44,186 bases of DNA from Desulfobacterales bacterium (GTDB lineage: Bacteria; Desulfobacterota; Desulfobacteria; Desulfobacterales; UBA11574). The notes beneath the pieces are model-generated. The model worked only from the letters and a program-made list of their open reading frames with translations, did not search any database and was not told where the DNA came from. The stretch spans positions 1 through 44,186 of the forward strand of contig JAQYVT010000015.1 of the NCBI GenBank assembly GCA_030145345.1, given 5' to 3'. Each line of letters opens with the position of its first letter. The stretch's first letter is position 1. Of the stretch, positions 1-44,186 are shown in pieces. Both the position numbers and the translations under genes were made by a program.

Positions 1-1250
1 CGAATAGCAAGCGTGGGGTAAAAGAACTGTCTGAACATATGCTTAACCGTGTGCTCTTCCGTAACGTAGTTGCCACCGGGCCCCACGTTTTCGATGATGT
101 CAACGGCGAGGGTTTCTTTGTCTACGTCAACGCCGCTGATCAATCGGTGGACCATCCCCAGGATCTCATTGTCAATGATGAATTGTTCGTAAGAGATCGA
201 ATTGCCGGAATCCAGGATTCCGGCGGCCAGATGAACATAATCGGCCCCGGCCATTGCGACCAGCAAATAAGAAACGCCTTTTTCAAAACCTGATTGAATA
301 TCGGGGATTTTGGCATCCGTCACTCCTGCAGATGCATAAATCGGCAGGTTGTAACGTTTTGCCAAATGGACGGCGCAGGCATTCAACATGGCGGTTTCAA
401 CCGAGCCCATGGTAAGATCCATGGTACGCAGGTCCATAGCGGTTGGAACGGCGCCGTACAGCACCCGGGCGCCGGGACTAAATACTTGAGCAATTGCAAC
501 GCCTGCCAAGGCCTCCGCATGCAACTGGGCAAGGGTGCCCGCCAGGGTCGCCGGAGAGGTAGCGCCTGCAATGGGCGCCGGGGCACAGGTGGTCGGAATG
601 CCGTTTAAGGCACAAAACTCTAGTATTTTAAGTGTGTTGGCATCTAAGGTGAGCGGGCTTATAGGATTGGTGATCATGGAAACAAAAGGGCGTTCTTTTA
701 GCTGTTTTTCCCCGCCTGCCATGAAACTGGCCAGTTGCCACAATTGCCGAACACCCTCGATCGTATCACACCCCCCCATGACATGCTTGGTGGTATTGCT
801 GAAGGCATGAAAAAAATCATTCAGATGATAGAACTCGGGGTTCAGATCGTGGGCCTGACAGGCAATAATATAAAATCGGATGTTGTCGAGACGATCGACA
901 AGATGTGCGGTGTTGATCACGTCTTTTAGGATGGTCGGGCGGTACCCCCCGGTGCCCATATCCAGAATCTGAAACACACGGCCGCCATTTCCAAAATAAA
1001 CATTGCCCGATCCAAGGTGCAGATCATTTTTACCGTCGCGGGAGTAGAGGGTGAATTGCTTCGGGGCCTTTGCAATCACTTTGTCAAGCCACCTTCCGGA
1101 AAAACAGGCCCGATCAGCCTTGACATCGACTCTGGCTCCGGCAATCTTGAGCATCTTTAGGGTGTGGCGGTCGAGTATCTTAACCCCCACGCGTTTTAGT
1201 ATTCTGCGTCCGGCCCGGTCGATTTTGTCGATTTCAGCGATAGTAAGCAA
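1..1250 (-). CDS. MttB-superfamily corrinoid methyltransferase, 3' end outside window
   Basis: The minus-strand frame is open from about 1250 to the window edge (416 codons) and contains no stop, so the C-terminus is missing. It aligns throughout with the MttB-like proteins at 1268-2719 and 10778-12238: HxMGG-type segment (HVMGGCDTIEGVR), YGAVPTAMDLRTMD, YNLPIYASAGVTDAKIPD and FIIDNEILGMV. The family transfers a methyl group from a quaternary or tertiary amine to a corrinoid protein. No in-frame TAG is seen, so this is a non-pyrrolysine member (the MtgB group of betaine demethylases) rather than trimethylamine MttB. No ATG lies near the expected start. I chose TTG at 1248-1250, preceded by AGAGG about ten bases upstream, although similarity (FKLL) continues slightly further upstream, so a rare start there is possible. 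It follows the previous MttB by 17 bases, so the two are co-transcribed. The substrate cannot be told from sequence. Confidence 0.85.
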   Translation of the reverse strand, partial: MLTIAEIDKIDRAGRRILKRVGVKILDRHTLKMLKIAGARVDVKADRACFSGRWLDKVIAKAPKQFTLYSRDGKNDLHLGSGNVYFGNGGRVFQILDMGTGGYRPTILKDVINTAHLVDRLDNIRFYIIACQAHDLNPEFYHLNDFFHAFSNTTKHVMGGCDTIEGVRQLWQLASFMAGGEKQLKERPFVSMITNPISPLTLDANTLKILEFCALNGIPTTCAPAPIAGATSPATLAGTLAQLHAEALAGVAIAQVFSPGARVLYGAVPTAMDLRTMDLTMGSVETAMLNACAVHLAKRYNLPIYASAGVTDAKIPDIQSGFEKGVSYLLVAMAGADYVHLAAGILDSGNSISYEQFIIDNEILGMVHRLISGVDVDKETLAVDIIENVGPGGNYVTEEHTVKHMFRQFFYPTLAI

Positions 1251-10777: not shown

Positions 10778-12238
10778 TTACATTATGCCCTCTTGCAGCC
10801 CGGGGATCTCCTTGCGGATCTCGGTGCGTATTTCAGAAGAAAGAATAGGTATTTCAGGCTTTGCCAGAATTTCTCCGACTATTTCTGTCGCTCGAGCCCG
10901 GGCTGATTTGGCACCGTCTCTTTCCCAGTCTTGCCGGTTATTCCTGTCACTGAGCTGAGGCTGATACAGTTCGGTGCGCATAAATTTGCGCGTATGGCGG
11001 TTGGAAACAAAATGGCCGCCCGGCCCCGCTTTCTTCAAAACATCGAAAGCCAGGGTTTCATCGTTTACCTGGATTCCTTCCACAGCCCGCATAACCATCC
11101 CTATGATTTCATTGTCTATTACCAGTTTGTCGTATGAGGCGGTCATGCAAAACTCAATAAAACCGGCGGCGTCATGAATAAAGTTGCCGCCGGCCAGCGC
11201 CACCATTAAACCGGTCAATGCCGATTCATAGCCGGCCTGGGTATCATTGGTTTTGGCATCAGACATGCCGGCTGTGGAATACAAGGGAAGGTTGTAAAAG
11301 CGGGCCATCTGGGCTGCAGCGGCATTCAGCAGGCCCATTTCCACGGCGCCTGATAAGTACTTCATGTCACGCATATCGGTAATCGAAGCGACACTCCCGT
11401 ATAATACCGGAGTGCCCGGGTTAACCAATTGGGTGAGCATCACACCGATTAGCGTATCCACGTTCAGCACGACCAGATTGCCGGCCAAGGTAATGGGGGC
11501 CGTCGCACCGCAAAGCGGCTCTGCCGGTACGACCACAGGTATACCGTGCTTTGCAACCTCCATGGCAAGCTGGCCATAGCTTTGATCAAGTTTAAAAGGA
11601 CTGATGTTGCATGCTACCATGGATATAAAGGGGCGCTTCTTTAGTTTTTCCGAAGAACCGGCGATGATTTCCGCCATTCTGATTACACTTCTGACCCCTT
11701 CGACCGTATAAACCCCGCCCATTATATGCTTGCGGGTATTGTTGAGAGCGGCGCCGAAGCGGTTAACATCTACATTCTCAACCGGCAGTTCGTTGGGGAA
11801 TACGTTGAGCATGTAAAAATGAATGTTGTCCAGGGCATCCACCAGGCGGGCCATGTTGACAATGTCTTCGAGTTTTGATCGCCGCGCATCGGTGCTGCCC
11901 GGATCTTGGACATTCAGGGCGGTTCCGCCGGTTCCCATATAAACATTGCTGCCGCCGATTTCACAGTCTAACTCACCATTATCAGCCCTTCCATAAAGGC
12001 GGACAACCGAAGGGGCCGATTCGATCAGTTTTGTAACCAGATCCGGATCGAACCTGGCAATTTTGGCGGCATCGTCGACATTGGCACCGGCTTGTTTAAA
12101 CAGTTCTAAGGCTTCCGGAAAATTCACCTGTATGCCGACTTCGGAAAAGATCCGCAGACTGGTTTTGTGTATTTTTATAATATCTTCATCGGCCAGAGGC
12201 TTGTACTGCCCCCCCGGCAAGCCTTTCCTCGTGATCAT
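10778..12238 (-). CDS. MttB-superfamily methyltransferase, likely betaine type
   Basis: This 486-residue protein opens with ITRKGLPGGQYKPLADEDI and then shows VYMGTGGTALNVQDP, NTRKHIMGGVYTVEGVRS, VPAEPLCGATAPITLAGN, VLYGSVASITDMRDMKY, YNLPLYSTAGMSDAKTND and FIEFCMTASYDKLVIDNEI. It is the copy most like non-pyrrolysine glycine betaine methyltransferases (MtgB group), judged from memory of the family and not from a search. The reaction would be betaine plus Co(I) corrinoid to dimethylglycine plus methylcorrinoid. No in-frame TAG. ATG follows AAGGAGGTGTAG, a very strong ribosome binding site. It is the second gene of the operon, after the reactivation-domain protein, and close to the osmolyte transporter, which supports a quaternary ammonium substrate. 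Confidence 0.9.
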   Translation of the reverse strand: MITRKGLPGGQYKPLADEDIIKIHKTSLRIFSEVGIQVNFPEALELFKQAGANVDDAAKIARFDPDLVTKLIESAPSVVRLYGRADNGELDCEIGGSNVYMGTGGTALNVQDPGSTDARRSKLEDIVNMARLVDALDNIHFYMLNVFPNELPVENVDVNRFGAALNNTRKHIMGGVYTVEGVRSVIRMAEIIAGSSEKLKKRPFISMVACNISPFKLDQSYGQLAMEVAKHGIPVVVPAEPLCGATAPITLAGNLVVLNVDTLIGVMLTQLVNPGTPVLYGSVASITDMRDMKYLSGAVEMGLLNAAAAQMARFYNLPLYSTAGMSDAKTNDTQAGYESALTGLMVALAGGNFIHDAAGFIEFCMTASYDKLVIDNEIIGMVMRAVEGIQVNDETLAFDVLKKAGPGGHFVSNRHTRKFMRTELYQPQLSDRNNRQDWERDGAKSARARATEIVGEILAKPEIPILSSEIRTEIRKEIPGLQEGIM

Positions 12239-16398: not shown

Positions 16399-17622
16399 TC
16401 ATAAGATCAGACAATCGGCCACCAGCTCCCACAGGTATTTCACCTCAAGATCTTCAAAATCGTATTCTGATTTCACATTATTAAACTGACCGTGGCAACT
16501 GTGGCAGGGAACCACAATCATCTTTGCCCCTGTGGCCCTGATCTGGTCGATCTTTTTTCTGGCATAAAAAACACGCTCATCGTTATACCCGGTTGTAAGG
16601 GTTCCGCCGCCCCCGCCGCAGCAGATTTGGTCCATTCTGTTGGGGTAGAGATCCACCCACATCTCCATACACTGATCCATAATCCATCGCGGCTCCTCAA
16701 AAAAACCGTGACCAAAACACTTTTCGGCCTTTCTGCCGTAATTGCACGGATCATGATAGGCGGCGAGTTCTGTATACTTTGTTCTGTCCAGTTTAATGCG
16801 ACCTTCTTTAATATATTTTATCAGCAGGTCAAAAACCGTGATAAATCCGAACTGATTCAATGCTTCAGGGTAATATTTTTCAAGACCCGACCGGGTCGCA
16901 AGGTAGGCATGGCCTCATTCCGGCCAGAGAAGGTTTTTGACTTGAAGCTTTTCCATCTGCTGCACAATCCGGCCGGCCATGACCTTCATGGCCTCTTCAT
17001 CGCCCGTAAAGTATCCCCATGAGGTTCCTTCCCAGTTTTCAGACGTTACGGTCCAGTCTTCCTGGGCCGCATGAAAAATTTTCCACCAGTGTTTTAAATC
17101 TTCGGTGTGCGTATTGACCAGTTTGTTATGGATGGTGGTTAAAAGATTCGCTCCTTTTTTGTCCACAGGTGCTTTGAATCCTTCAAATCCCGGTTCTTCT
17201 GCCACCTCTTCGGCGACATCCTCGATGATAAAAATAAAGTCTTCCTTGGGCAGGCGAAGATTGTTGCCGGTCTCCAATGCGGCCGCAAGACCTTTATGAA
17301 GAATCCCCGGGACCTTTTCGCGATCTCTTAGGGATCGGATTTTTCTGACCAAATCGGCGATGTCGATCTCCATGGGGCAAACATTTTCGCATTTGCCGCA
17401 CATGGTGCATATCCACGGCCACCGAGCGTCTATCAGTTCCTCAACCAGTCCCAGTGAAACCATCCGGACCAGCATACGGGGATCAAATCCGTCTATTCCG
17501 GAAGCGGGGCAGGAACTGGCACACAGCGCGCACGTAACACAATAATCCTGCAAAAACGGCCAGGATCGGCATCTCCCGTGATCGAGTTGATCCATATCGG
17601 TGATTTCAAATGGTGATGTCAT
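16399..17622 (-). CDS. HdrC-HdrB-like Fe-S oxidoreductase with in-frame UGA (probable selenoprotein)
   Basis: Conventional translation gives two pieces (17622-16915 and 16860-16399), but the frame is shared and open across a single UGA at 16915-16917. Read as Sec the product has 407 residues with U236 in PE-U-GHAYLATRSGLEK. The N-terminus is HdrC-like, with two [4Fe-4S] motifs (C28xxCxxCxxxCP and a second CxxCxxCxxxCP around 72-84). The C-terminus is HdrB/HdrD-like, with C293, CC at 334-335 and CxxC at 373-376, one CCG motif. U236 occupies the last Cys position of the preceding degenerate CCG unit. The paralogue at 32682-34001 has UGA at exactly the same place with similarity continuing after it. 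A hairpin lies 22 nt downstream. It is likely a cytoplasmic electron-transfer subunit working with the HdrA and MvhD-like proteins upstream. Confidence 0.85.
16884..16897 (-). promoter_or_regulatory. Candidate bacterial SECIS hairpin for the UGA at 16915
   Basis: On the minus strand GACCC-GGTC-GGGTC forms a perfect 5-bp stem whose apical loop begins 22 nt after the UGA. The loop GGUC is the same as that of the well-known E. coli fdhF element. Bacterial SECIS elements need a stem-loop 16-37 nt downstream with a G at the start of the loop, and this fits. Confidence 0.65.
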
Positions 17623-32681: not shown

Positions 32682-34001
32682 CTACATCGCCGATTCCGGG
32701 TGAAAGACCAGAACGTCTTTGAGGTCATCTCCCAGGTATTCTCTTTCGTTTGGGCCGAGAATTCCCAGGGAAAGGCATATCAACGTCCACAAATGAACGG
32801 TCTGCCATGCATGCTCGCGCTGATCCGACAAATCATGAATTTGGGCATGGCAGTTGTGACAGGGCGCAATGCAATAATCGGCTTTTGTGGCCAGAATCTG
32901 GTCGGCTTTAAGCTGGCCGTACGCACGACGTGCATCGGTATATCCAGATTGAAGAAAACCGCCACCACCGCCGCAACAGTAGTTATTCGAACGGTTGGGA
33001 ATCATATCGATGAAATTCTCTTCACCCACGACCGATTTGACGATAAACCTCAAATCTTCCGCGATTGGATCGCCATAACTTTTTCGCACGATCTGGCATG
33101 GATCCTGAACCGTAAACTTGATCTTCAAATTTTTGTTCCAGTCTGAATTGACCTTCAGTCTTCCTTCCCGGATCCATTTGGCATAATATTCATAGATGTT
33201 CTTAACCTCAAAACTATGGTCAATGTTGAATTTTTTCAGTCCAGCCCGGACTGAGAACGTCACGTGACCTCACTCGGTATTGAGAAAGATTTTACAACCC
33301 AGGTCATCCGCCTGTTTGGCCGTGGTTCGGGTAATGTGTTCCCAGGCTTGGTCATCCGCCAGAAACATACAATAGTTTTCTGCCGCCCAGCCTTTATTGC
33401 CATAGGTCCAGTCTACACCCGCCCGGTGAAGAATCTTCCATAGCGGAACCAATTCGTCCGGTTCGGTCACCGGTTCTCTTGAATTCTGGTTCAAAAAGAA
33501 TTCGGCGCCCTGTTTGTCGATGGGCGCAGCCATATCCTTGAATTCCGGCTGAGCCTCCTGATATTCCTCGAGAACGTCTTCAACTACGAACTGGAAGTCC
33601 TCCTCGGACGTTCCCATGGCACTGCAACTGTCATTTCTCAAAGCCATGTCACAGGAGCCCAGGATACCCTTGGGACGCTCCTCCCTGGGCCAGGCTGCCC
33701 TGGCATTATAGACCAGCTGGGGAATGTCAATTTGCATGGGACAGACATAAATACACCGCTGACACAGAGTACACATCCATACCCAGGGAGTACTTAAAAT
33801 TTCTTTGTCCATGCCCAGGGCCGCCATCCTTAGAAACTTTCGAGGATCCATATCTTCCAGGCCGGTGGCCGGACATCCTGAAGAACAGGCACCACAGGTC
33901 AAACAGAGATTGAGATTTCCGCCTTCTGGAAGAAGTTCTTTTACCGTGTCTAAAAAGCCGCTTTTCTTTTTACCTTTGATGATAATGGGTTCTCCTGGCA
34001 T
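32682..34001 (-). CDS. HdrC-HdrB-like Fe-S oxidoreductase with in-frame UGA (probable selenoprotein)
   Basis: This is one frame across a UGA at 33270-33272; conventional calling splits it into 243- and 193-residue pieces. With Sec it has 439 residues and U244 in TE-U-GHVTFSVRAGLKK. The N-terminal HdrC-like part has CLTCGACSSGCPATG (about 33-45) and CTLCQRCIYVCPMQID (about 78-90). The C-terminal HdrB/D part has C302 in VQDPC, CC 342-343 and CHNC 381-384. It aligns with the protein at 16399-17622 on both sides of the UGA (E-U-GH, RxGLxK, IxEGRxK), which would not be expected of two unrelated genes. It is positioned as the HdrBC component of the MetFV-HdrA-MvhD set. A hairpin 22 nt after the UGA fits a SECIS. 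The natural end acceptor of the HdrBC site is unknown. Confidence 0.87.
33236..33254 (-). promoter_or_regulatory. Candidate bacterial SECIS hairpin for the UGA at 33270
   Basis: On the minus strand TCAGTCC-GGGCT-GGACTGA is a perfect 7-bp stem with a 5-base loop starting with G. The loop begins 22 nt after the UGA, the same spacing as in the paralogue at 16884-16897, although stem and loop sequences differ between the two. Conserved position with diverged sequence favours a selected structure. Confidence 0.65.
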
Positions 34002-40387: not shown

Positions 40388-40463
40388 TGACCGTGTTTAT
40401 AAAATAAAAAACCCAAAAGCGTTCGCAAAAACATTTTGGAGTAAAAGCGAAGGATAATGATTG

Positions 40464-41693
40464 ATGGCAAAAGGAGAAATGAATCGACAAGATCAACAGC
40501 AGCAGGATTTGGAAATAAAGGAAAGGCTGGGTCACATCAAGAATAAAATCCTGGTGATGAGCGGCAAAGGGGGCGTGGGGAAAAGCAGCGTCGCAGCATA
40601 TCTATCGGTGGCTTTGGCAAAAAAAGGGTATAGAGTGGGTCTCATGGATGTGGATCTTCACGGACCCAGTATCCCGCACATTCTGGGTCTCAAAGGAAAT
40701 ATCGGACCGGGTAGCACGGATGGAAAAGCCCGACCCGTTAAGTACATTCAAAATATGGACGTGATTTCCATTGAACCGCTTTTGGGAGAAAATAAGGATG
40801 CAGCAACGATCTGGAGAGGCCCCCTTAAGATTGGTGTTATCAGACAATTCATTGCAGATGTCGAGTGGTCGGATCTTGACTACATGATCATCGACTCACC
40901 ACCGGGTACCGGCGACGAGCCATTGACCGTAGCACAGACCATACCCGATGCAAAAGCCGTAATAGTGACAACCCCCCAAGAAATTTCACTTGCTGATGTT
41001 AGAAAATCCATCAATTTTTGCCGACAGGTCAAGATGGAAATCTTAGGTCTTGTGGAAAACATGAGCGGACTCGAATGTCCCCATTGTGGAAAAATGATAG
41101 ACATATTCAAGACCCGTGGCGGGATGCTCACCGCCAAAAAGGAGGGGTTGAGACTTTTAGGAACACTCCCTTTTGAACCAGAGGTGGTATCAATGGGTGA
41201 CATGGGAAATATGGGTCTTCTGGACAACGGTAAGATTTTAATCACACAGGAATTCAGTAAAATAGTGGATGGAATTATTAAATTTACAAACATTGAGACA
41301 ACGACGATTCCTGAACCGAAAAAGAAAGTTCCGATTATAAAAAAGCGCTCTGAAGACTCAAAGATACTCGTTGTACCAATATCCGAAGGAAAACTCTCAT
41401 CCCATTTCGGTCACTGTAAACAGCTCGCATTTATTGAGATTCAACACGGAAAAATAGCAAAAACAGAAATGCTTGCCCCACCGGCTCACGAACCGGGAGT
41501 GCTGCCCCGGTGGCTTAATGAGCAGGGAGCTGATATCGTTATCGCGGCTGGAATGGGAGAAAGGGCTCAACAGCTTCTGAAGGAAAACGGGATTGACGTA
41601 ATTATCGGCGCTCCAATGGATTCCCCGGAATCCCTGACAAACCAGTATCTCTCCGGCACATTGGTAACCGGCGCCAATGTCTGTGATCATTAA
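40464..41693 (+). CDS. Mrp/NBP35-type ATPase fused to a NifX-like domain
   Basis: The start is ATG 40464, nine bases after AAGGA (409 residues). Residues 1-270 are a Mrp/ApbC P-loop ATPase: deviant Walker A VMSGKGGVGKSS near residue 35, MDVDLHGPSIPHILG, IIDSPPGTGDEPLT and the cluster-binding CPHCGK (CxxC). From about 295 the chain becomes a second dinitrogenase-cofactor-like domain (ILVVPISEGKLSSHFGHCKQLAFIEI, GADIVIAAGMGERAQQLLKENGIDVI). It should be an Fe-S carrier that delivers clusters, with the fused domain perhaps storing or sensing them. The separate NifX-like protein and IscU-like proteins next door support this reading. Confidence 0.9.
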   Translation: MAKGEMNRQDQQQQDLEIKERLGHIKNKILVMSGKGGVGKSSVAAYLSVALAKKGYRVGLMDVDLHGPSIPHILGLKGNIGPGSTDGKARPVKYIQNMDVISIEPLLGENKDAATIWRGPLKIGVIRQFIADVEWSDLDYMIIDSPPGTGDEPLTVAQTIPDAKAVIVTTPQEISLADVRKSINFCRQVKMEILGLVENMSGLECPHCGKMIDIFKTRGGMLTAKKEGLRLLGTLPFEPEVVSMGDMGNMGLLDNGKILITQEFSKIVDGIIKFTNIETTTIPEPKKKVPIIKKRSEDSKILVVPISEGKLSSHFGHCKQLAFIEIQHGKIAKTEMLAPPAHEPGVLPRWLNEQGADIVIAAGMGERAQQLLKENGIDVIIGAPMDSPESLTNQYLSGTLVTGANVCDH

Positions 41694-41730
41694 ATCAGAT
41701 GTATCGGGTAAAGGAAAAGAGGAAGCGCGA

Positions 41731-42198
41731 ATGAGCAAAGATTTTGATGATTTTGTTGAGAGATTGCAGGATCAAATTTTTAAAGAAACAAGAGCAGTCT
41801 ATGGTGATATCGCGTTTCAAAGGTGGCTGAACCCGTTGTATGCGGGTCGTATAAACAATGCCGATGGATACGGACGTGTAATCGGTTCATGCGGTGATAC
41901 CATGGAGATTTTTTTGAAATTCGAAAACGGGAAAGTTAAAAATGCTTCATTTCAAACCGATGGTTGCGGATCCAGCACGGTGTGCGGGTCATTTGCAGCC
42001 GAGCAGTCTCTTGGAAAAGGCCCTGACAAGATTTTGAATATTACAGGAGAGGGTATCCTGGAAAGATTAGGGGGATTACCTGAAGAAGATGAGCACTGTG
42101 CTTTTTTATCTGCGGATGCCCTTCAAGAGGCCCTAAATGATTATATGGTCAAACAGCAAAAGAAGCTAAAAAAGAGACGCCTTCAGAAAGACTATTAA
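41731..42198 (+). CDS. IscU/NifU-like Fe-S scaffold
   Basis: The start is ATG 41731, after GAGGAAGCGCGA (155 residues); an upstream start would overlap the Mrp gene. The scaffold cysteines are in VIGSCGDTMEIFLK, TDGCGSSTVCGSFAAEQ and EHCAFLSADALQEAL, with Asp after CG. DGCGSSTVC has one more Cys than IscU. The C-terminus is very basic (KQQKKLKKRRLQK). It follows the Mrp-NifX gene by 37 bases and probably hands clusters to it. It is distinct from the partial copy at the right window edge. Confidence 0.87.
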   Translation: MSKDFDDFVERLQDQIFKETRAVYGDIAFQRWLNPLYAGRINNADGYGRVIGSCGDTMEIFLKFENGKVKNASFQTDGCGSSTVCGSFAAEQSLGKGPDKILNITGEGILERLGGLPEEDEHCAFLSADALQEALNDYMVKQQKKLKKRRLQKDY

Positions 42199-42200
42199 TA

Positions 42201-42381
42201 ATGAAAACATATCTTGATTGCCTTCCTTGTTTCCTAAATCAGGCGCTTCGTTCGGCAAGGATAGCCAACAGATGATGAAAAGAAGATAAAAACGATCTTA
42301 GATGAAATAGGAATGATGCTGAGAAACATCCCGCTTGGGAGCACTCCACCGGAAAGAATGTTTTATCTGTTTAATTTGTAG
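42201..42381 (+). pseudogene. DUF89/ARMT1-like protein remnant, frameshifted and truncated
   Basis: The frame starting at ATG 42201 gives MKTYLDCLPCFLNQALRSAR then IANR and TGA. One base over, the sequence continues as TDDEKKIKTILDEIGMMLRN and IPLGSTPPERM before TAG at 42379. Together they match the N-terminal 55 residues of DUF89 phosphatases (MKTYxDCxPCFxxQAL, then ATDDE, then SPPE). A one-base insertion near 42268 (AACAGATGAT) explains the break. The remaining 200-plus residues are absent. The gene is therefore decayed, not a small ORF. Confidence 0.7.
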
Positions 42382-42492
42382 GCAATTTTGTAGGTTCAGA
42401 TGCATATTCATTCGCTCAATTAGGGAAAAAGAGAAAAGGGATGGCTTGAAGTCCTTCAGGGGTACATTTCAGCATTGATAAGGAGGTTGATT

Positions 42493-43848
42493 ATGGAAAA
42501 GGGTGAAAAATTAGTGGTTATCGGCTGTGGAGGGGTGGGCGGACCTGCTGCCATGCTGTCGAAGAAGCTGATGCCGGATGTCGAAGTTACGGTTATCCGG
42601 GATGAAAAAAGGTTTATTGTCAGATGAGCCCTCCCCCATGTCGTGGCCGGTCTGGTCACTGGAGAGTCTATCGTTAATCCGGACCAAAAGCTTCAAGGAG
42701 CCGGTATTAAGGTTATCACCGGCAAGGCAGTAAGCATTGATGTCAACACCAAGAAAGTTTACTTGGATGACGGCACTGAAATTCCTTATGACAAATTGAT
42801 TATGGGGACCGGGGCCAGCCCGATTATACCCCCCATGGAAGGCCATGATCTTAAAGGCGTCTTGACCCTGCGCTCCCTGAGCGATGCTGAAACCATAAAG
42901 CATTTCTTAGAAGACAAAAAGCTCAAGAAGCTGGCCTTTATCGGCGCGGGCTTTATCACCCTGGAAGTCGCCGCTCTTCTCAAAGCCGCTAAACCGGATT
43001 ATTATGATATTCATGTGATCGAACTGTTGAGCCACCCGCTGCCCATGATGATGGACAAAGATTTGGCGGTTTTGTTGCAGGAATATCTGGTGGAAAAGGG
43101 CATGGAAATGAATATGGGCGCAAAAGTAGAAAAAATATTAGGCCAAGATGGCACGGTGACGGGGGTAGAGCTTTCTACAGGAGAAATAATTGCCGCGGAC
43201 ATGGTATTTCTTAACGTCGGCGCCAGGGCGAATACTGAACTCGCAAAAGATATCGGATTAGAGATCGGCAGGTTCGGCATTCGGGTCAATAAATTCTTAG
43301 AGACCTCGAATCCGGACATTCTCGCGGCTGGGGACTGTGTTGAGAAGGAAGATTTCATCACCAAAAAACCGGTTCCCGGCCAACTGCGCGGCCCCGCAGT
43401 GATCCAAGGACGTCTGGCGGCCAAAAGGCTTGCCGGCTACAAGATCGAATTTCCGGGAGTATTGAATGCCTGGGCATGCAAACTTTTTGATAAAGTCCTG
43501 TCGGGCACGGGCTTGACCGAGGAGCAGGCCCTTCAAGCAGACATTGAGACCGTTAGCGCCGTAGTTGACTCCAGGAGTAAGCACGGGATGATCCCAGGCG
43601 TCAAACCCTGGACCATCAAACTGATCTTTGACAAAGACTCCAGAAAGTTGATCGGCGGGCAAATTATCAGTGATGCTGTCTCACCGGCAAAAGAAATAGA
43701 CGCTGTCAGCGCGCTGATTCTCGGCGGTAAAACCATTGAAGATCTCACCACATTCATGACCGCCGGAAATCCGGACAGTTCTTCGGAGCCGAGCATGGAA
43801 CCGATTACGATTGCTGCCGAGCAGGCCTTGCAGAAATTGAGAACGTAA
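42493..43848 (+). CDS. CoA-disulfide/NADH-oxidase-type flavin reductase with UGA at the catalytic Cys (probable selenoprotein)
   Basis: ATG 42493 follows a perfect AAGGAGGTTGATT. The frame is interrupted only by UGA at 42625-42627; with Sec the protein has 451 residues and U45 in RFIVR-U-ALPHVV. FAD motif LVVIGCGGVGGPAA at 8-20, NAD motif FIGAGFITLEVAALL near 156, second FAD motif LAAGDCVE near 279 and a dimerisation domain at the end are all in place. In the single-Cys class (CoA-disulfide reductase, NADH oxidase/peroxidase, NADH-dependent persulfide reductase) the redox Cys is at residue 42-43, exactly where U45 falls. A call starting at 42643 would lose the flavin site. There is no rhodanese domain. 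The substrate may be a thiol disulfide, persulfide or peroxide. Confidence 0.87.
42643..42659 (+). promoter_or_regulatory. Candidate bacterial SECIS hairpin for the UGA at 42625
   Basis: GTGGCC-GGTCT-GGTCAC is a 6-bp stem (one G-U pair) with loop GGUCU, the same loop as in E. coli fdhF. The loop starts 21 nt after the UGA, almost the spacing of the other two candidates in this window. Confidence 0.7.
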
Positions 43849-43884: not shown

Positions 43885-44186
43885 ATGAATAAAAATACAG
43901 ATAAAAAAGAATTAAACTTTTGGAAGGACCATTCCCTGCGTTATCTTGAAATGGCTCTGGGTACGGATAAGCGGGAACGTGTGACAAATCCTGACGGATA
44001 TGGCAAAAGAACCGGCGAATGCGGTGATACCGTTGAGATGTTTTTAACGGTTCGCAACAACCGTATCCAGACGATTTCATTTGATACCGATGGCTGTATA
44101 AACACCAATGCCTGTGCAAATACGTTGGTTTTTCTGACACAAGGAAAAACTATCCCACAGGCTTGGAAAATTACTCCGGAAAAGGT
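43885..44186 (+). CDS. IscU/NifU-like Fe-S scaffold, 3' end outside window
   Basis: From ATG 43885 the frame is open to the window edge (100 codons and 2 bases). It contains YLEMALGTDKRERVTNPDGY, RTGECGDTVEMFLTVRN and TDGCINTNACANTLVFLTQG, the first two scaffold cysteine motifs of IscU with the CGD Asp. The third Cys is beyond the window. It resembles 41731-42198 more than 36695-37240 (same NPxxxGRxxxxDGYG-like lead). It follows the UGA-containing reductase by 36 bases and is likely co-transcribed. No clear Shine-Dalgarno is visible, so the start is moderately certain. Confidence 0.8.
   Translation, partial: MNKNTDKKELNFWKDHSLRYLEMALGTDKRERVTNPDGYGKRTGECGDTVEMFLTVRNNRIQTISFDTDGCINTNACANTLVFLTQGKTIPQAWKITPEK

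Follow-up and report, generated by a model that had tools for sequence, protein, structure and literature searches.

The closest described relatives of the gene examined here are single-Cys flavin disulfide reductases, with Npsr of A. fulgidus (6pfz) as the closest solved structure by profile. Structures 3kd9, 4fx9 and 5l1n, which we take to be Pyrococcus horikoshii CoA-disulfide reductase (CoADR), share the domain layout of our protein, have no rhodanese domain and match at E ~1e-75. P. horikoshii is named as a CoADR organism in PMC7969121, where the A. fulgidus enzyme (AfNpsr) is described as reducing persulfides and polysulfide at ~10^4 M-1 s-1 and CoA-disulfide not, with Cys42 as its catalytic residue (PMC7969121). 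By its organism, name and residue count, we take 6pfz to be the AfNpsr structure. A selenocysteine (Sec) form of the superfamily is listed as an “FAD-dependent oxidoreductase (CoA-disulfide reductase / NADH oxidase)” of TIGR03385 with the motif UGxP (WP_011365774.1; PMC13188914, Table 1; PMC9312934). Such a Sec “NADH oxidase,” from Geobacter metallireducens, was one of 285 selenoproteins in 2006 (PMC1794560), and one was counted in GOS (PMC2398784). The terms “CoA-disulfide” and “NADH oxidase” do not occur in the main text of PMC8318568, on dual code expansion in marine Deltaproteobacteria, and a search of the open-licence PMC literature yielded no description of a U[A/S]LP subfamily. Sec in the superfamily is already known in the UGxP form, and the U[A/S]LP family described below is a further variant. 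It shares with WP_011365774.1 the superfamily and the placement of Sec at the single redox position, and is set apart from the listed motif by U[A/S]LP after FIVR, without SxxxU.

Within the 44,186-nucleotide stretch of DNA analysed here (the window), translation of 42493–43848 on the plus strand gives a 451-aa frame that is open except for a single in-frame TGA at codon 45. Its features are as follows.

42480–42487, plus strand: Shine-Dalgarno sequence AAGGAGGT, 5 nt 5′ of the ATG.
42493–43848, plus strand: putative Sec-containing flavin disulfide reductase, 451 aa, matching Pyr_redox_2, Pyr_redox and Pyr_redox_dim; 41 TGA family members including this gene.
42508–42549, plus strand: N-terminal FAD-binding Rossmann motif (GxGGxGG), residues 6–19; Pyr_redox_2 match from residue 6, and alignment.
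42625–42627, plus strand: UGA at codon 45, predicted to encode Sec as the redox residue; its alignment partner in AfNpsr is Cys42.
42643–42659, plus strand: candidate bacterial-type SECIS hairpin, stem 42643–42648/42654–42659, loop GGUCU at 42649–42653; supported by 39 distinct rows, codon constraint and slid controls.
42943–42966, plus strand: NAD(P)H-binding motif GAGFITLE, residues 151–158, within a Pyr_redox match at 146–228; G151, G153 and E158 invariant.
43570–43599, plus strand: family motif SRSKHGMIPG, residues 360–369, from alignments; HYYP stands there in CoADR/Npsr structures.
43762–43794, plus strand: family motif AGNPDSSSEPS, residues 424–434, from alignments; AYAPPYS stands there in Npsr.

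The three Pfam domains all exceed their gathering cut-offs, and the FAD, NAD and dimerisation domains together place the protein in the single-Cys flavin disulfide reductase superfamily. Both family motifs are strongly conserved among its relatives, most of which are preceded by AGGAG-type sites.

To define the family, a class sample of 291 genomes was searched, and 37 were found to carry it, with 38 close relatives (45–74% identity, window included), 35 with an in-frame TGA and three with no stop; an additional TAA at position 451 of the G157 relative is the expected terminal stop. A scan of named contigs gave five loci, two of which (L052 and L054) were left out as apparent duplicates of class loci with equal sequences. 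A search of 395 genomes of the phylum added three TGA forms (G421, G395 and G627) and four distant Cys forms (36–47% identity range), the latter kept apart as outgroups. Across the resulting 44 family rows (38 + 3 + 3), codon 45 is TGA in 41 and TGT (Cys) in three, and the outgroups likewise have Cys at the redox position. With TGA in 41 rows and Cys in the other three, the UGA pattern is beyond chance. The family consensus reads FIVR-U-[A/S]-LPHVVAG, with U45 opposite the Cys of RCGLPYY in 6pfz, residue 42 as counted along the alignment. One 63%-identical Sec copy (L056), in a record labelled Candidatus Zixiibacteriota MAG, is nested among Desulfobacterota rows, reflecting either lateral transfer or mis-binning.

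The predicted SECIS element (GTGGCC-GGTCT-GGTCAC) has a 6-bp stem beginning 15 nt past the UGA and a loop 21 nt past it. After merging of identical rows, the 41 TGA rows reduce to 39, of which 37 exhibit all six hairpin pairs and two exhibit five; 36 rows share the loop GGTCT, and GGTGT, GGTCA and GGGCT occur in one row each. Sliding the 3′ arm by one to three columns lowered pairing from 99.1% to 17–53%. Codon variation was compared across 40 aligned TGA sequences, with 133 eligible columns (conserved residue with at least four codons). The hairpin codons 51–55 are exactly the five least variable columns: their top-codon frequencies are 0.98, 1.0, 0.98, 1.0 and 0.85, while the other columns have a median of 0.46 and reach 0.79 at most (Mann-Whitney p = 8e-5, indicative since the rows are related). 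The single-sequence fold was not better than shuffles (z = +0.46), and, with a stem that is nearly invariant, 74 of 500 shuffles reached the observed covariation. Support for the putative hairpin is comparative, lying in codon constraint and loop conservation, not in fold energy or covariation. The three Cys rows (L048, G169b and G174), read in register, keep five, four and three of the six pairs with loops GGCCT, GGCCT and GGAGA, so that GGTCT is absent from all three.

The window's genome (97.8% complete) encodes SelA (610.9 bits), SelB (384 bits), SelD (371 bits) and tRNA-Sec (75.4 bits), the full set expected of a Sec-decoding organism. Its SelD gene (G000:C53:13941-14861, minus strand) has an in-frame TGA of its own and is probably itself a selenoprotein gene. 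With 80 candidates scored per genome, tRNA-Sec was detected at 73 bits or more in 34 of 40 genomes and was not found at that level in G157, G219, G076, G141, G183 and G223, some MAGs being incomplete; all of the six except G223 carry the TGA form. G076 and G219 belong to the same genus, and for their lack of a match above the family cut-off a divergent tRNA, an assembly gap or the 80-candidate scoring depth are candidate causes. Loss of Sec machinery as the origin of the Cys forms was ruled out, as the Cys-using genomes G011 and G174 have strong tRNA-Sec matches.

From these comparisons UGA-45 is almost certainly decoded as selenocysteine. The initial annotation had placed a UGA at the catalytic Cys position, behind a full FAD-binding start and a perfect Shine-Dalgarno sequence and ahead of a hairpin with a GGUCU loop, and each of these points stands: Cys occupies position 45 in the family alignments, the catalytic Cys does not lie elsewhere, and the codons there are not random. 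Standard annotation would split or shorten the gene, so that a redox enzyme common among sulfur-cycling anaerobes has probably been mis-annotated.

Structure searches gave 6pfz as the best match, at E 5e-59 with the single protein and E 6e-87 over residues 6–448 with a 13-row family profile. As compared to Npsr, the window protein has Sec for Cys, replaced Tyr motifs and no C-terminal rhodanese domain: Pfam gave no rhodanese match, and the chain ends at residue 451. An AlphaFold2 model built with six sequences was set aside (mean pLDDT 63, below 50 near residue 45). E177 is nearly invariant in the family alignment. A Glu at this type of position indicates a preference for NADH, and E177 suggests NADH as the electron donor.

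Disulfide-reductase chemistry is likely for the window protein, and the best explanation as a whole, which we consider probable, is a homodimeric FAD reductase with a single Sec acting on a small sulfur-sulfur substrate. By analogy with its relatives, we infer an NADH-dependent single-Sec reductase of per/polysulfides or small disulfides that would work through a Se-S intermediate. The enzyme would belong to the single-Cys disulfide-reductase group with Sec in place of the catalytic Cys. SelB, acting on the hairpin just 3′ of UGA-45, would direct reading of the UGA as Sec, a step with strong comparative support. Given both Rossmann motifs, NAD(P)H, probably NADH, would reduce FAD, and the FAD would in turn reduce Sec45, which would attack the S-S bond of the substrate. 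From the Npsr and CoADR relatives, this substrate would most likely be a persulfide or polysulfide, and less likely CoA-disulfide, with sulfide or thiol released via a Se-S intermediate on Sec45. Persulfide or polysulfide in particular is a candidate that falls slightly short of probable. There is no second Cys beside the redox residue, which would leave FADH2 or the substrate thiol to resolve the intermediate. The Tyr-bearing motifs that CoADR/Npsr carry in the dimer domain give way to other sequences here, and so the substrate may be new.

A 54-row tree placed all 40 Sec rows in one supported clade (100/97), with the Cys rows L048 and G169b nested inside, which suggests, without forcing, reversion from Sec to Cys. 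Sec/Cys changes number two in the best tree and one on starred branches alone, and a single change suffices in 11% of bootstrap trees. In this tree the window's family is a distinct, well-supported clade. In the G169 genome the family is represented twice, once with Sec and once with Cys (L059 and L060). Matched Sec/Cys orthologues, this natural pair among them, lend themselves to studying the contribution of selenium to flavin disulfide/persulfide chemistry. In a TIGR03385 search of 247 genomes of the phylum, 156 had a match at E ≤ 1e-85 and none exceeded the cut-off. Among the matches listed with one TGA, all 36 have it at residue 40 or 41, in contexts such as SYSAUGIPYY and SYGSUETPYY (SxxxU), and two such examples scored 461 and 427 bits against TIGR03385. 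These SxxxU relatives are probably of the same kind as WP_011365774.1. A 79-row tree separated them from the window clade by a 100/100 branch, and there Sec needs five changes, at least three on starred branches, with a single change in 0% of bootstrap trees. Given this branch, the multiple changes and the higher TIGR03385 scores, the window clade constitutes a predicted Sec subfamily distinct from that of the SxxxU proteins. In the SxxxU clade (L123–L158), some hairpins have short loops (e.g., TTACATC-GGT-GATGTAA), unlike the GGUCU loop of the window. That Sec has appeared repeatedly at the same catalytic residue, in several clades of the superfamily, suggests that it offers a specific chemical benefit in cells rich in sulfide. 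A broader scenario, which we regard as speculative and rather unlikely, would have a widespread Desulfobacterota clade of NADH-dependent seleno-reductases handling sulfane sulfur (persulfide/polysulfide) with a lone Sec, Sec having been gained at least twice independently at the catalytic position in the superfamily, and NifU-like partners tuning Fe-S sulfur supply in some lineages.

The genes next to the reductase raise a more specialised alternative, in which the Sec enzyme would be dedicated to Fe-S assembly and reduce persulfide sulfur on behalf of NifU/IscU-like scaffolds and an MrpORP carrier.

40461–41693: MrpORP gene.
41677–42198, plus strand: NifU/IscU-like scaffold gene upstream (NifU_N, 79.8 bits); a weak association.
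43885–44186, plus strand: second NifU/IscU-like gene, ending at the contig end (NifU_N, 38 bits).

NifU-like genes thus lie on both sides, as had been noted from the start, and one lies within 2 kb of the family gene in five of 37 genomes (G000, G062, G094, G150 and G181), which span three taxonomic families with varied arrangements. These 37 genomes hold 116 NifU-like genes, from which 0.18 genomes would be expected by chance, an approximately 27-fold excess (Poisson P ~1e-6, or ~3e-5 leaving out the window's own genome, for a distance cut chosen after seeing the data). Against this, the other 32 genomes have no NifU-like gene nearby, three of the five share one family, G150 has its gene on the opposite strand, and no conserved neighbour or operon was found across 40 neighbourhoods of family genes. 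Neighbourhood conservation was accordingly rejected as a functional clue, since only scattered NifU-like, NifX/DUF5320 (5/40) and MrpORP (4/40) genes recur; in six of the 40, a tandem Cys-type paralogue adjoins the family gene. Dedication to Fe-S assembly is unlikely on this evidence. The tie to Fe-S assembly, the weakest claim of the initial annotation, keeps the statistical excess but not a conserved association, and the Fe-S link is weak.

Somewhat less likely still is an authentic CoADR with Sec for Cys. TIGR03385 (CoA-disulfide reductase) is the best NCBIfam model (E 6e-72), and the redox position is as in CoADRs. The score, however, is 242.8 bits against a curated cut-off of 578.8, a very strict threshold given that no genome among the 247 exceeds it, and the two SxxxU examples, which also bear TGA, score far higher than the window protein. 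The tyrosines of the YYP and YxPPY motifs take part in CoADR catalysis. In the window protein FIVRU stands for SxxxC, MIP for YYP and AGNPDSSSEPS for the Tyr-rich C-terminal motif; HYYP is present in both 6pfz and 3kd9, where the window family has HGMIP. Of the original “CoA-disulfide-reductase-like” label, the part that holds is a CoADR/Npsr-like flavin reductase with Sec as its single redox residue, while CoADR identity itself is weakened by the low score and the replaced motifs.

Similarly doubtful is an NADH oxidase or peroxidase that would reduce O2 or H2O2 and in which Sec would have a protective role or accelerate the peroxide chemistry. Such enzymes are among the structural relatives, and the known seleno-member bears the name “NADH oxidase” (PMC1794560). 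The nearest structures by profile, however, are Npsr and the CoADRs. The hosts of the family are presumably anaerobes, which also counts against this chemistry. A genuine stop or a sequencing error at the UGA, leaving a pseudogene or a shorter protein, is exceedingly improbable: a table-11 ORF finder does offer only a 401-aa ORF from GTG 42643, and a MAG contig may contain errors, but the TGA recurs across many genera with a fully conserved downstream frame, codon constraint falls exactly on the hairpin, and the short ORF starts inside that hairpin and lacks the FAD motif and redox residue. The single-Sec FAD reductase of a small sulfur-sulfur substrate remains the preferred reading.

Between the upstream NifU-like gene and the reductase, a fragment at 42201–42380 reads MKTYLDCLPCFLNQALRSARIANR in one frame and TDDEKKIKTILDEIGMML in another; it presumably resembles a decayed DUF89-type gene, and Pfam gave no match for its two pieces. 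Four further features lie elsewhere in the window.

224–323, minus strand: Rfam PYLIS_3 match (40.7 bits) in an MttB-like gene.
11167–11266, minus strand: Rfam PYLIS_3 match (53.8 bits) in an MttB-like gene.
16399–17622, minus strand: UGA-containing gene in which UGH (UGA at 16915–16917) separates part of an Fe-S domain from a CCG domain; the Pfam CCG match exceeds its cut-off.
32682–34001, minus strand: UGA-containing gene of the same layout (UGA at 33270–33272; Pfam CCG above cut-off).

The MttB-like frames at the PYLIS_3 matches are open, with no amber codon over the stretch seen, and PYLIS_3 therefore seems to recognise MttB sequence, not pyrrolysine decoding. The two UGH genes agree with the earlier count of the reductase as a third Sec candidate in 27 kb. 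They are of the GlpC/HdrD-like (Fe-S oxidoreductase-like) selenoprotein kind listed in PMC13188914, are unrelated in fold to the reductase and bear on it only by indicating that the genome uses Sec.
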